Of a stretch of DNA of 46,910 nt, positions 7,619 through 24,758 are shown piece by piece. This DNA is from Streptantibioticus silvisoli. Its GTDB lineage: Bacteria; Actinomycetota; Actinomycetes; Streptomycetales; Streptomycetaceae. Numbering within the stretch: the stretch's first letter is position 1; each line of letters opens with the position of its first letter. The stretch lies in contig NZ_JAAGKO020000061.1 of the NCBI RefSeq assembly GCF_027947535.2, positions 1 to 46,910 of the forward strand. The letters are read 5' to 3'. The translations under genes were made by a program, and so were the position numbers. Below the pieces are notes generated by a model. That model saw only the letters and a program-made list of their open reading frames with translations. It ran no database searches and was not told the origin of the DNA.

Positions 7619-8827
7619 TCACCGGGTGACCATGAGCTTCTTGACGGCGTAGTTGGTGCCGTGGGTGTCCATCGGGACCTGGTCGGCGGGGACGGCCAGG
7701 CGCAGGCCGGGGAAGCGGGCCAGCAGGCGGGGCAGGACGGTCGTCAGCTCGGCGCGGGCGATGTTCTGGCCCAGGCACTGGTGGACGCCGAAGCCGAAGG
7801 CCAGGTGGCGGCTCATCCGGCGGTCGAAGTCCGGGCTGTCGGGGTCGTCGAAGGCGCGCGGGTCGCGGTTGGCGGCCGGCATCGCGACCACCACGAGGTC
7901 GCCCCGGGCGATGTGCTGCCCGGCGAACTCCAGGTCCTCCAGGGCGACCCGGCCGAGCCCGAACTGCACGATGGTCAGGTAGCGCAGCAGTTCCTCGACC
8001 GCCTGCCCGGTCTTCTCCGGGTGGGCGGCCAGGTCCGCGCGCTGCTCGGGGTGGGTGAGCAGGGTGAAGACCGACAGGCCCATCATCGCGGCGGTGGTGT
8101 CGTGCCCGGCGAACAGCAGCAGCACGCCCATGCCGATGAGTTCGTCGTCGGTCAGGAAGCCGTCCTCGCCGTCGGCGACCGCGATCAGCTCGGCCAGCAG
8201 CCCGTCGGCGGCGCCGGTGCGGCGCTTGTCGGCGACCAGCCGGGTGATGTAGTCGATCAGCCACCGGGCGCCGCGGTCGCGCTCGGCCCGGCTGTTGGCC
8301 ATGTCCATCATCGCCTCGGTGGCGTGGTGGAAGCCGTCACGGTCCGCGTAGGGCACCCCGAGCAGTTCGCAGATCACCAGGCACGGCACCGGCAGCGCCA
8401 TGGCCTGCACGAAGTCGAAGGTGGCGGGCCCGGCCGCGATGGCGTCCAGGTGCTCGTCGACGATCCGGTCGATGTACGGCTGGAGGGTCCGCCGCACGCT
8501 CTTCGGGGTGAACCGCCCGGCCAGCAGCCGGCGGTAACGGCCGTGGTCCGGCTCGTCCATCATCACGAAGGTCGGGTTGAACGGTGCCTCCTCACCCGCC
8601 TCGGAGACCTCGCCCTCGGGTGTGTCGTGCCGGGGGCGGCGGGCGCTCAGCCGCGGGTCGGCGAAGACCGCGCTGCCCTCCTCGAACCGGGTGACCAGCC
8701 AGCCGGAGGTGCCGTTGGGGAAACGGACCCGGGTGACCGGCTGCTCCTCGCGCAGCCGGTGGTACTCCAGCGGCGGGTCGAGCGGGGCGGCACGGTGGAC
8801 GGGCATCGCCGGAAGCGTCTCGGTCAT
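7619..8827 (-). CDS. Cytochrome P450 (bacterial class I type)
   Basis: A 402-residue soluble P450. It shows the I-helix oxygen-binding AGHDTT (240-245), the K-helix ExxR as E279-R282, and the heme-ligand loop FGFGVHQCLG with Cys351. The sequence style (FVMMDEPDHGRYRRLL, LGQNIARAEL) is that of actinobacterial enzymes such as CYP105 or CYP107 relatives that hydroxylate small or secondary metabolites with electrons from a ferredoxin; no ferredoxin gene is adjacent. Start ATG at 8827 overlaps the stop of the upstream fusion gene in ATGA, so translation is coupled and the two products probably act on one pathway. The substrate cannot be told from sequence. Confidence 0.93.
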   Translation of the reverse strand: MTETLPAMPVHRAAPLDPPLEYHRLREEQPVTRVRFPNGTSGWLVTRFEEGSAVFADPRLSARRPRHDTPEGEVSEAGEEAPFNPTFVMMDEPDHGRYRRLLAGRFTPKSVRRTLQPYIDRIVDEHLDAIAAGPATFDFVQAMALPVPCLVICELLGVPYADRDGFHHATEAMMDMANSRAERDRGARWLIDYITRLVADKRRTGAADGLLAELIAVADGEDGFLTDDELIGMGVLLLFAGHDTTAAMMGLSVFTLLTHPEQRADLAAHPEKTGQAVEELLRYLTIVQFGLGRVALEDLEFAGQHIARGDLVVVAMPAANRDPRAFDDPDSPDFDRRMSRHLAFGFGVHQCLGQNIARAELTTVLPRLLARFPGLRLAVPADQVPMDTHGTNYAVKKLMVTR

Positions 8828-10665
8828 CGTTGCTCCGTGGGGGTGGTGGGGGCGGTGTCGGTGTTCGGGTCGGTGGCGGTGCTGGCGGCGGTGTCGGTGC
8901 TGGCGGTGCTGGGAGCGGCGTCAGCGGTGGTGGCCGCGTCGGCGGTGCCGGTGCCGGTGCCGGCTGCGTCGGGCGTGGCCGCGGCGTGGTCGGCCAGGGC
9001 GGCGGTGACACCCTGGTGAGTGGCGGTGGCGTCGCACCAGCCGACGTACAGGGCGAGGTGCAGCACCGCCTCCCGCAGCTGCGGGGCGGTCAACTCCCCG
9101 CTGTCCAGGGCGCCGGCGGCCTGGATACGGATCAGGTCGGCGCGGCCGGTGGCGGCGGCCACGCCCAGGGTGAGCAGCCGCCGGTCGCGCACCGACAGGT
9201 CCGGGCGGCTCCAGACGTCGGCGAACAGGTAGTCCACGGTCTGGGTGGTGAAGGGGTCGGCCGGCTCCCCGAGGCCGCCGAGACCGGGGTAGACCCGGTC
9301 CATCATCGCCAGACCGCGCTCGCGCCGGTCCGCCGGCAGGGCGGAGGAGGGCTCCGCGGGCCCGGGTGCGGTCGGCGGTGCGGTCGGGTCGACGGACCCG
9401 GGCGCGGTCGGCGGTGCGGCCGGGCCGGCGGACTGGGGCGTGGCTGGCGGTGCGGCCGGGGCGACGGACCCGGGCGTGGTCGGCGGTGCGGCCGGGCCGG
9501 CGGACTGGGGCGTGGCTGGCGGTGCGGCCGGGGCGACGGACCCGGGCGTGGTCGGCGGTGCGGACCCGGGCGCGGCTGGCGGTGTCGCCGGGTCGGCGGC
9601 GGCGTCCGGCAGGCCGAGGGTGTGCCGGACGCGGTCGCGGGTGACGTCCACCAGGGGGACGCCGACGCCCAGGTCACCGGCGAGTTCGCGGGCCGCGTCG
9701 AGGTCCTTGCGCATCAACACCTCGATGCGCCCCGCGAGTTCGGCGGGCAGGCCGTCGCGCCGCATGCGCAGCAGCTGGAGCAGCGTGGCACCCTCGGGGT
9801 CGGCGGCGTCGATGACGCCGGCCAGCGTGCCGGGGTCCACCCCGGCCGCCCGCACCAGGGCGGCCGCCTCGGCGACGGTGCGCCAGCCGCCGTAGGTGAT
9901 GACGTTGCGGGCGATCTTGGTGGCCATGCCGGCGCCGGTCGGACCGCAGTGCACGATCTTCCTGGCCCAGCCGTCGAGGACCGGCCGCGCCGCCTCGACG
10001 ACGCGCTCGTCGCCGCCGACGATGGCGACCATGCCGTGCTCGGCGGCCCGGTCGCCCGGGGTGACGCCGCAGTCCAGGAACCCGGCGCCCGACGCGGCGC
10101 AGGCGGCGGCCAGTTCCCGCACCACGGGCAGCGCGACGGTGCTCAGCAGCACCACCGTCAGGCCGGGATGGGCGGCGGACAGCAGGCCGTCGGCACCGGT
10201 GATCACCTGCCGCGCCTGGTCGGCGTCGAGCACGGCGACCATGACCACGTCACTGCTCCGGGCGACCTCGGCCGGCGAGGCCAGTGGCCCGGGCACTCCG
10301 GCGAGCGCCCCTGCGGCGTCCGGGCGGATGTCGTACACCTGCGGCACCAGCCCGCCGCGCGCCAGGCTGACGGCGACCCCGCCCCCGATCGCGCCCAGAC
10401 CGACGACCCCGGCCCGCGGGACGGCGGTTGCGGGGTGCGGGTCGCCGGCGCCGGCGCCGGCTGCGGGGTGCGGGCCGTCGGCTGCGGCACCGGATTCGGC
10501 TGCGGCTGCGGCTGCGGCTGCGGGGTGCGGAAGGCCGGCTCCGGCGGCGGCTCCGGCTCCGGGACGCGGACCGTCCCCTCCGGGACGCGGGCGATCGGCT
10601 CCGGGCCCTGCCTCACCGGCCGCGAGGCCGCCGGCTCCGGCCCCTGGTGGGTTGCCTTCGGACAT
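8824..10665 (-). CDS. Fusion: beta-hydroxyacid dehydrogenase + carboxymuconolactone decarboxylase domain
   Basis: About 613 residues in four parts. Residues 1-84 are Ala/Gly/Pro-rich. Residues 85-355 form an NAD(P)-binding beta-hydroxyacid dehydrogenase of the 3-hydroxyisobutyrate/imine-reductase type, with GLGAIG at 90-95 and the family's catalytic lysine in GAGMATKIARN (Lys251, Asn255, counted from the GTG). Residues 356-440 are a Pro/Ala/Ser linker with a 24-residue repeat. Residues 445-565 resemble carboxymuconolactone decarboxylases (ending EAVLHLALYVGWCDATA), without the CxxC of AhpD. A C-terminal Thr/Ala tail follows. Start ATG 10665 or GTG 10668; GGGAGG suits both. The stop overlaps the P450 start. 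Oxidation followed by decarboxylation of one substrate is an inference from the fusion. Confidence 0.82.
   Translation of the reverse strand: MSEGNPPGAGAGGLAAGEAGPGADRPRPGGDGPRPGAGAAAGAGLPHPAAAAAAAAESGAAADGPHPAAGAGAGDPHPATAVPRAGVVGLGAIGGGVAVSLARGGLVPQVYDIRPDAAGALAGVPGPLASPAEVARSSDVVMVAVLDADQARQVITGADGLLSAAHPGLTVVLLSTVALPVVRELAAACAASGAGFLDCGVTPGDRAAEHGMVAIVGGDERVVEAARPVLDGWARKIVHCGPTGAGMATKIARNVITYGGWRTVAEAAALVRAAGVDPGTLAGVIDAADPEGATLLQLLRMRRDGLPAELAGRIEVLMRKDLDAARELAGDLGVGVPLVDVTRDRVRHTLGLPDAAADPATPPAAPGSAPPTTPGSVAPAAPPATPQSAGPAAPPTTPGSVAPAAPPATPQSAGPAAPPTAPGSVDPTAPPTAPGPAEPSSALPADRRERGLAMMDRVYPGLGGLGEPADPFTTQTVDYLFADVWSRPDLSVRDRRLLTLGVAAATGRADLIRIQAAGALDSGELTAPQLREAVLHLALYVGWCDATATHQGVTAALADHAAATPDAAGTGTGTADAATTADAAPSTASTDTAASTATDPNTDTAPTTPTEQR
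9411..9554 (-). repeat. Two perfect 72-bp tandem repeats inside the fusion gene linker
   Basis: Bases 9411-9482 are repeated without change at 9483-9554, and weaker copies extend to about 9365 and 9590. Seventy-two bases keep the frame and add 24 residues each, rich in Pro, Ala, Thr and Ser, to the linker joining the dehydrogenase and decarboxylase domains. Perfect identity points to recent expansion. Confidence 0.9.
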
Positions 10666-23090: not shown

Positions 23091-23118
23091 GCCCCGCCCG
23101 GAGTGTTCCGGGCGGGGC
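23091..23118 (-). terminator. Terminator of the collagen-like gene
   Basis: Twelve-bp perfect stem (GCCCCGCCCGGA with TCCGGGCGGGGC) around GTGT, 43 bases past the stop codon on the minus strand. Confidence 0.85.
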
Positions 23119-23160: not shown

Positions 23161-24138
23161 TCAGCCCTGGTCCAGCATCGCGTCCAGTTCGTCATCGACC
23201 GACCGGACACGGTGGCCGAGCTCCGGGAAGTCCACGTTCACCTGCTCCCACCCTCCTTCGCAGATGTCACCCACGCCGCTGCACGGCGCGTTCTCCGCGC
23301 GGTAACCGAACATCAGCTGTTTCCAGCCTCCTTCGCAGATGTCGCCCAGGCCACCACACGTCGCCCTCACCGCGCCCGGCCGCACGGGGCCTGCCGGGCC
23401 CCGCTCCCCCCTGGGTCCGGCCGGACCCGCGGGACCGGCCGGACCAGCCGGACCAACGCGTCCACGGCCTGCCGGACCGGCGGGGCCCATCGGGCCGCGT
23501 TCACCCCGGCCCACCGGACCGACCGGACCCATCGGGCCGCGTTCGCCCCGGCCCACCGGACCCGCCGGGCCCCGTTCGCCCCTACCGACCGGCCCCACCG
23601 GACCGCGAGGACCCCTCGGCCCCCGTTCACCCCGGCCCACCGGACCCACCGGACCGCGAGGGCCCCTCGGGCCGGGAGGGCCGTCATGGCCGTTTCTTCC
23701 CGGCAGCCCGGGGAGGCCGTGCCCGGGGTGCGGGATTCCCCCGTGGTGGTGCGGGATTCCCCCGTGGTGGTGCGGCATCCCGCCGTGGTGGTGGGGCATC
23801 CCGCCGTGATGACGCGGCTCACCGAAGTGGTGCGTCCCCGCGTGGTGGTGAACGCCTCCGTGGTGATGAGGCTCCCCGTAGTGGTGCGTCCCCTCGTGGT
23901 GGCGAGGCTCTCCGTAAGGGTGCGTCCCCTCGTGGTGAGGAACATCCCAGTGGGGGCGGGGCTCGCCGTCGTGACGGGTTCCCACGTGGTGGCTGTCATT
24001 GGCGGCGGCCGGGCCTTCGAACGCGGCGACGGCACCCGACAGCGCGACGAGGAGAGCAATCATGGCACCGCTGCCCCGCCTGACGGCGCGCTTGGAGCGC
24101 CGGGCATCGGAGGATTGGCCTTGGCGACGAGGGTTCAT
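23161..24138 (-). CDS. Secreted His-rich collagen-like protein with twin C-x6-C-EGGW motif
   Basis: A 325-residue exported protein of unrecognised family. Residues 1-47 form a signal peptide: Arg/Lys-rich lead, hydrophobic [16 protein letters not shown], and a cleavage region AAAND. Residues 48-140 are His/Gly-rich with repeats such as [12 protein letters not shown] and, four times, a (M/I)PHHHGG-like unit, a likely metal-binding region. Residues 141-255 are about 38 Gly-X-Y triplets, Pro-rich with many GERGP and GPVGPVG blocks, able to form a collagen-type triple helix. The tail (261-325) has two copies of C-x-G-[LV]-G-D-I-C-E-G-G-W, with Cys261/Cys268 and Cys286/Cys293, then an acidic end. 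ATG at 24138 has GGAG eight bases upstream. It has its own AT-rich upstream region and terminator, so it is a single-gene unit. Function unknown; surface adhesion or metal capture is a guess. Confidence 0.88.
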
Positions 24139-24758
24139 ACGTTGCTCCAGTCCGCCGTTGATCGATTGGTTGATCCGATATTTCCTTAATGTTTTACAAT
24201 CAGACGAACGCCTCGCCGGAATAATCACCGCAATGGACGCAAGCCCGCACGGAAATCTGATACGACGTGCGATTCCTTCGTATGCGAGGCATGAGAACAC
24301 CTGCCTGCGCCGTTGCCCGGCGGGCAGGGCAGGGTGGGAAACGGTGGCAGCAGGGCGTTTCCCCCGGACCTCGCCCGGCAGGAGAACGCCGCCCACCATG
24401 CGGCCCTGAGGGGGCATCACCGCTCGCCCCGCCGCCCGGCCGCCCGGCCGCCCGGCCGCCCGGCCGCCCGGCCGCCCGGCCGCCCGCAGCGGAATCGCGT
24501 TGCGGGATTTCCGGGAACCGGCTGTTCACGGTGCACGGCTCCGTTTACCCTGCTTGCCCTGCTTTCCTCGCCGCACCGACCGCGATGAATTCCGCGCGAG
24601 TACCGGGGAATCCGCAATGGCATGAGCGCGTTGGGGGAATTCCGCACGGCAAGTCCCGTCCACGCGGACGCATATTGGTCACCCGGCCGGGCAACTGCCG
24701 TCCCCGTTACGCCCTTTCGGATATGCCGCAGCTCATCGCGACGAATACGGCCGGCGGA
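24139..24758. other. Long AT-richer intergenic region upstream of the collagen-like gene
   Basis: No gene is seen in 620 bases. Bases 24150-24300 are markedly AT-rich for this chromosome (GATATTTCCTTAATGTTTTACAAT style) and probably hold the collagen-gene promoter; a direct repeat GTTGATC (24158 and 24170 region) lies 20-40 bases upstream of the start. An 8-bp satellite occupies 24433-24487. Bases 24560-24660 carry scattered GGAATTCCGC-like motifs. Short frames here lack start sites and family likeness. Confidence 0.65.
24433..24487. repeat. 8-bp microsatellite (CGCCCGGC)
   Basis: Six perfect head-to-tail copies of CGCCCGGC and a seventh partial copy. The unit contains a CCGG-centred dyad, so the array can also fold on itself. 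Confidence 0.97.

Follow-up and report, generated by a model that had tools for sequence, protein, structure and literature searches.

Collagen-like proteins with a stalk of Gly-X-Y triplets flanked by non-collagenous domains are described in PMC8968730, examples being Scl1 and Scl2 of Streptococcus pyogenes and Bcl of Bacillus (Pfam PF01391). According to the same source, interruptions of the triplet pattern are known from animal and bacterial collagens. In the preCol proteins of the mussel byssus, as PMC6477608 describes them, His-rich terminal domains (about 20 mol % His) lie beside collagen and bonds between His and metal cross-link the thread. These are animal proteins with silk- or elastin-like flanks, and their His-rich domains are found at both ends. 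Mannan-binding lectin, in turn, carries lectin heads. Its stalk contains a Gly-Gln-Gly (GQG) interruption, and peptide work described in PMC9898670 found that with this break the peptides melt at about 30 °C (29 and 32 °C) instead of 64 °C. A triple helix is still permitted in those peptides and is bent by 11 to 85 degrees, depending on the residues neighbouring the break (PMC9898670).

We analysed a 46,910-nucleotide stretch of DNA from Streptantibioticus silvisoli (hereafter the window), which contains a predicted collagen-like gene at 23161..24138 on the minus strand. Judged by its Gly-X-Y region and layout, the translated product of 325 aa is a bacterial collagen-like protein. It has an extended Gly-X-Y region of 33 triplets and a final GPV, with five breaks, and both a signal sequence and non-collagenous domains on either side of the stalk were seen in the sequence and its hydropathy. 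In contrast to Scl1/Scl2 and the Bcl proteins, it combines a tail without relatives, a His-rich arm and five Gly-X-Gly breaks, and there is no LPXTG-like motif (L[PA]xTG) anywhere in the 325 residues to serve as an anchor. The NCBIfam Scl2/SclB model gave 47.6 bits against a cut-off of 325, and an LPXTG-anchored Scl adhesin was ruled out on these two grounds. The pairing of a collagen stalk with a His-rich terminal domain recalls the mussel preCol proteins. Here, however, 32 of 93 residues are His and the domain is found at one end only, and the likeness is meant as an analogy of design only. The breaks likewise recall mannan-binding lectin, although they read GRG rather than GQG and number five, whereas a single break is described for the lectin (PMC9898670).

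Signal sequence and His-rich arm

Residues 1-47 (23998..24138, minus strand) read as an N-terminal signal sequence, with a charged start, a hydrophobic core and the residues AAA-ND. The best 19-residue hydropathy window begins at residue 22, with a mean of 1.95. Residues 48-140 (23719..23997, minus strand) form the His-rich arm, in which sequence and repeat analysis showed 32 His residues arranged in units such as GGMPHHH and GEPRHH. A preliminary description of this DNA had listed a signal peptide and about 90 residues of His/Gly repeats; both were found, and its coordinates and list of parts for the gene are correct. It had also proposed a surface-attached fibre, a claim left without support: in addition to the missing LPXTG-like motif, there is no second hydrophobic segment, as no 19-residue window past residue 47 has a mean hydropathy above 0.36. 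From these features, the protein is apparently secreted and un-anchored.

A collagen-like stalk with repeated breaks

The stalk covers residues 141-252 (23383..23718, minus strand), as defined by Gly spacing and Pfam PF01391. From residue 141 onwards the sequence contains 33 triplets with a Gly directly after each, then a final GPV, and it is interrupted by five two-residue Gly spacings; elsewhere Gly is kept at every third residue. The approximately 38 unbroken triplets of the preliminary description therefore do not exist as such. All five of the two-residue spacings are Gly-Arg-Gly, four of them standing before GER and one before GRV, and the runs of triplets between them number 9, 5, 3, 4, 4 and 8 (the last becoming 9 if GPV is counted). 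Pro occupies X in 23 of the 33 triplets and Arg occupies Y in 10. Both preferences favour a triple helix without hydroxyproline.

Tandem repeats in the stalk have units of 33, 42 and 51 bp, together with others of 9, 18, 24 and 84 bp. The first three correspond to 11, 14 and 17 residues, each of which is a number of triplets plus one two-residue step, and the break thus seems to be part of the repeat unit. It seems, from these lengths, that the Gly-Arg-Gly break was copied along with the unit. The Pfam Collagen model (PF01391) scored the protein as a whole at 36.6 bits, above its cut-off of 27.2, with no single stretch passing even E 1, and the gene was not among the 11 Pfam Collagen matches (E ≤ 0.001) of its own genome.

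For comparison, 41 loci (30 from the family and 11 from the same genome) were searched for arrays with a minimum length of 18 triplets and a Pro content above 10%. None of the 36 other arrays, which came from 25 of the 30 family loci and from none of the 11 own-genome loci, contained a Gly-X-Gly break, in a set that is biased towards regular stalks by its selection as best Pfam Collagen matches, that includes some arrays representing the two strands of one DNA stretch, and for which the pattern used detects a break only if at least three triplets stand on either side of it. Because a Gly-X-Gly break destabilises and bends the model helix (PMC9898670), a long, straight and stiff stalk is unlikely here. 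The stalk is likely to be either hinged or unstable.

A doubled Cys tail

Residues 253-325 (23164..23382, minus strand) make up a tail with four Cys and, on translation, no significant match to a known family. Two copies of the motif C-x-G-[LV]-G-D-I-C-E-G-G-W lie 25 residues apart, as reported earlier, at 23323..23358 and 23248..23283 (minus strand, located by DNA pattern match). Searched for as a DNA pattern, the motif occurred twice in the window and not at all in 100 dinucleotide shuffles. The two tail units are identical at 12 of 28 aligned positions, including both Cys and GDICEGGW, and most of the remainder differs. No significant match to the tail was found in Pfam (best E 0.46, with no carbohydrate-binding family among the matches), no match up to E 1 in NCBIfam, and the best match among PDB-chain sequences was an L-rhamnose-binding lectin at a non-significant E of 0.92. 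A structure model of the tail, built from the single sequence, was too poor to serve as a search query (mean pLDDT 54.1). The conserved Cys and GDICEGGW would suit a small module, held by disulfides or metal, that sets the register of a trimer or locks it.

Reading frame

The minus-strand frame is open from the ATG at 24138 to the stop at 23161-23163, giving 325 aa. A plus-strand antisense frame (23212-24189) is also open over the same stretch, and a crude gene caller favoured it. GC by codon position was 0.83/0.61/0.78 in the minus frame versus 0.77/0.61/0.82 in the antisense frame, so that the two are not separated by this measure. The GC3 of 0.78 is lower than in most neighbouring genes.

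The frames were compared through the differences, by codon position, between similar 24-nt (and 30-nt) stretches within the gene, all of which proved to be in the same phase. At minus-frame codon positions 1/2/3 the 24-nt stretches gave 12/183/263 differences in the His part, 132/185/612 in the stalk and 34/1/54 in the tail; the stretches overlap, so these counts are not independent, and the contrast is weakest in the tail. Differences peak at minus-frame position 3, which is antisense position 1, in all three parts (263 vs 12, 612 vs 132 and 54 vs 34). A GGAG sequence resembling a ribosome-binding site lies 6 nt 5′ of the ATG (24145..24148, minus strand). Beyond the stop, at a distance of 42 nt, is a perfect 12-bp hairpin with a 4-nt loop (23091..23118, minus strand), a likely end of transcription, and the 81-nt stretch containing it has a folding z of -4.12. 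The hairpin has no T-run and is consequently absent from a consensus terminator scan. Together, the repeat differences by codon position, the GGAG before the ATG and the hairpin past the stop favour the minus frame as the predicted coding frame.

Search for relatives

A peptide-pattern search for the tail in a collection of 84,980 species, each represented by one genome and with records close to the window's own possibly omitted, returned 250 stretches, none of which was confirmed. In the same collection the DNA pattern C-x-G-x-G-D-x-C-x-G-G-W, which recovers both copies in the window, was found at 20 loci. In the matching frame, no locus had a Gly-X-Y run longer than three triplets, and a second copy was absent from all 20. 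Within the family (394 genomes), only 2 of the 393 others gave a tail match at E ≤ 0.001 (3.0e-4 over 37 residues and 6.8e-4 over 51 residues); both lack a stalk and were taken for chance. The 29 loci from this search (L002-L030) had Gly-X-Y runs of at most four triplets in the frame of the match. Three loose look-alikes among them were also judged to be chance, namely CGSLGDFCQGG in L002, CGRAGCLCNGGW in L006, where the frame contains stops, and a repeated RGRGDHCAGG in L029. The only match at E ≤ 0.001 in the gene's own genome was the gene itself, with one further match at E 0.118.

No match of the tail at E ≤ 0.003 was found in the 393 other genomes of a class-wide set of 394, and a two-row profile of the tail units found none at E ≤ 0.001 in the 296 others of 297 family genomes. 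Plasmids and phages yielded one tail match each (E 1 and 0.9, neither accepted), and none of 14 stretches from viral contigs was confirmed. The N-terminal part and the stalk had no match in 149 other family genomes at E ≤ 1e-8 and E ≤ 1e-12, respectively, strict limits that would miss weak relatives. The best reading of these searches, in which no relative of the tail was accepted, is that the gene is lineage-specific, where the lineage may extend to close species sharing the gene, the genus being represented by the window's genome alone.

Among the open-licence papers listed by literature searches, none concerned a collagen-like protein of the same build. The preliminary description had recognised neither the tail nor the three-part build as a whole. 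Its view of the tail agrees with the lack of significant Pfam, NCBIfam and PDB-chain matches and of any collagen-linked relative in the searched collections. As for the build, a His-rich stretch beside the stalk is not unique: among 27 family loci with an array of at least 15 triplets, 5 reach a His content of 15% or more in the 60 residues flanking the stalk on one side, and in 4 of these 5 the stretch is C-terminal. Thus the pairing of a His-rich stretch with a collagen stalk is not in itself new. Some family proteins that join an Ice_binding-like domain to a collagen stalk (L056, L065, L077, L078) carry a His/Gly-rich segment beside the stalk, a grouping based on a common VFWQVGSSATI stretch, Pfam Ice_binding itself being confirmed in L071 only. 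In these, however, the His segment is C-terminal, there is an extra front domain, the stalks are longer and no Gly-X-Gly break was counted. The loci L071, L077 and similar encode long proteins with a common front domain and a stalk of 67 to 119 triplets, some with a His/Gly-rich end. What sets the present protein apart is its doubled Cys tail, together with breaks that seem to have been copied with the repeat unit.

Genomic slot

The neighbours of the collagen gene lie on the same strand: LtrA is found 620 bp upstream, and 469 bp downstream there follow a MarR regulator and a pair of ABC-2 type transporter genes. LtrA matches occurred in 18 of 26 genomes, the gene's own included. LtrA stood beside the MarR and transporter genes in two (L101 and L105) of the eight LtrA regions compared, and in the other six there was no MarR match at E 1e-5 within the stretch compared. 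In L101 about 70 bp separate the LtrA stop from the MarR match and the slot is nearly empty. In L105, from the same family, the interval is about 944 bp and encodes an LPMO_10 protein (8537-9136, minus strand). Across the three genomes compared, the slot between LtrA and MarR is therefore nearly empty in one, occupied by an LPMO gene in another and by the collagen gene in the third. Genes for secreted proteins may use it as a small accessory slot.

Possible roles of the protein

To the observed sequence, layout, genomic slot and rarity, and the support for the reading frame, the explanation we tentatively place first, with somewhat less than even confidence, adds the following. The gene would encode a lineage-specific, secreted and apparently un-anchored homotrimer with a hinged stalk, His arms that bind metal, and a Cys tail that aligns or locks the chains. 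The gene probably has its own transcript, and export would follow the general secretory route. Three chains would probably come together as a homotrimer with a flexible stalk, built of triple-helical blocks (3 to 9 triplets each) that are separated by Gly-Arg-Gly hinges. The three His-rich N-terminal arms could bind Zn, Cu or Ni, in the manner described for the His ends of preCol (PMC6477608), and might thereby cross-link molecules outside the cell, which would amount to a role in a matrix. The four-Cys tail may align the chains or lock them by disulfides. In favour of this explanation are the open frame with its signal sequence, the backing of that frame by repeat differences, GGAG and hairpin, the Pro and Arg content of the triplets, the His-rich arm, the positions shared by the two tail units, the lack of an LPXTG-like motif or second hydrophobic segment, the triple helix that lectin peptides still form despite a GQG break (PMC9898670), and the LPMO_10 gene in the same slot of a relative. 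A bolder version, which we think unlikely to hold in full, would make the protein a bacterial counterpart of the mussel byssal design, in which a secreted collagen hinged by Gly-Arg-Gly carries metal-cross-linking His arms and the doubled C-x6-C-EGGW tail is a new small module for register or locking.

The stalk itself counts against the homotrimer, since no proline hydroxylation is known here and a helix with five breaks may not be stable enough without it. Also on that side are the absence of an accepted homologue in the collections searched, the poor tail model, upstream metal-regulator boxes at background level, the missing sigma-70-like promoter and a GC3 below that of most neighbours. 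We consider it possible, if rather doubtful, that no stable triple helix forms and that the product is a secreted, largely disordered His/Arg-rich repeat protein that ends in a small Cys-linked tail and either condenses or binds metal. The five phase breaks fall within only 112 residues, no single Pfam Collagen stretch passes, and such a break was absent from the 36 other arrays of the comparison set, biased as that is to regular stalks. Gly nevertheless recurs at every third residue except at the breaks, and the frequent Pro at X and Arg at Y speak for a helix. The literature points both ways, since one break sufficed for the fall in peptide melting point given above (PMC9898670), yet collagens of animals and of bacteria are both reported to have interruptions (PMC8968730).

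The tail and the slot bear on two further explanations. A young or decaying orphan gene, in which GC-rich repeats expanded within a lineage-specific insertion under little or no selected function, would fit a gene found in one genome only among the collections searched, a GC3 below that of most neighbours, an open antisense frame and a slot that is nearly empty in one relative. We think this unlikely in view of the repeat differences by codon position, the signal sequence, the ribosome site and the hairpin past the stop, as well as the retention of the motif in both tail units, most other positions of which have diverged. The same pair of small Cys/Trp motifs would fit a compact binding module, and the slot is occupied in a relative by LPMO_10, a polysaccharide-acting enzyme family. 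The tail could on that account be a tip that binds, for instance, chitin or a wall polymer, with the stalk as a spacer, in an adhesin or exported binding protein. This appears the least probable of the explanations, since the Pfam matches of the tail include no carbohydrate-binding family and the match to L-rhamnose-binding lectin is not significant. Should the homotrimer be correct, it would provide a natural bacterial collagen with phase breaks built into the repeat unit, a means of studying the tolerance of a triple helix lacking hydroxyproline for repeated hinges, and possibly a metal-linked collagen amenable to genetics. If there is no trimer, the gene would offer a clear example of an accessory slot occupied by an orphan repeat protein.

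Upstream region

No sigma-70-like promoter turned up 5′ of the collagen gene. Over the 620 bp that precede it, Zur, Nur and DmdR1 boxes, scored with consensus sequences, were no better than in shuffles (147, 295 and 292 of 300 shuffles, respectively, reached the observed score). The region 24125-24350, 5′ of the gene, is locally less GC-rich and is a likely promoter region. Further upstream, at 24425-24486, an 8-bp unit (CGCCCGGC) is repeated in tandem almost perfectly, with 7.8 copies and 98% matches, and the array is possibly variable in length.
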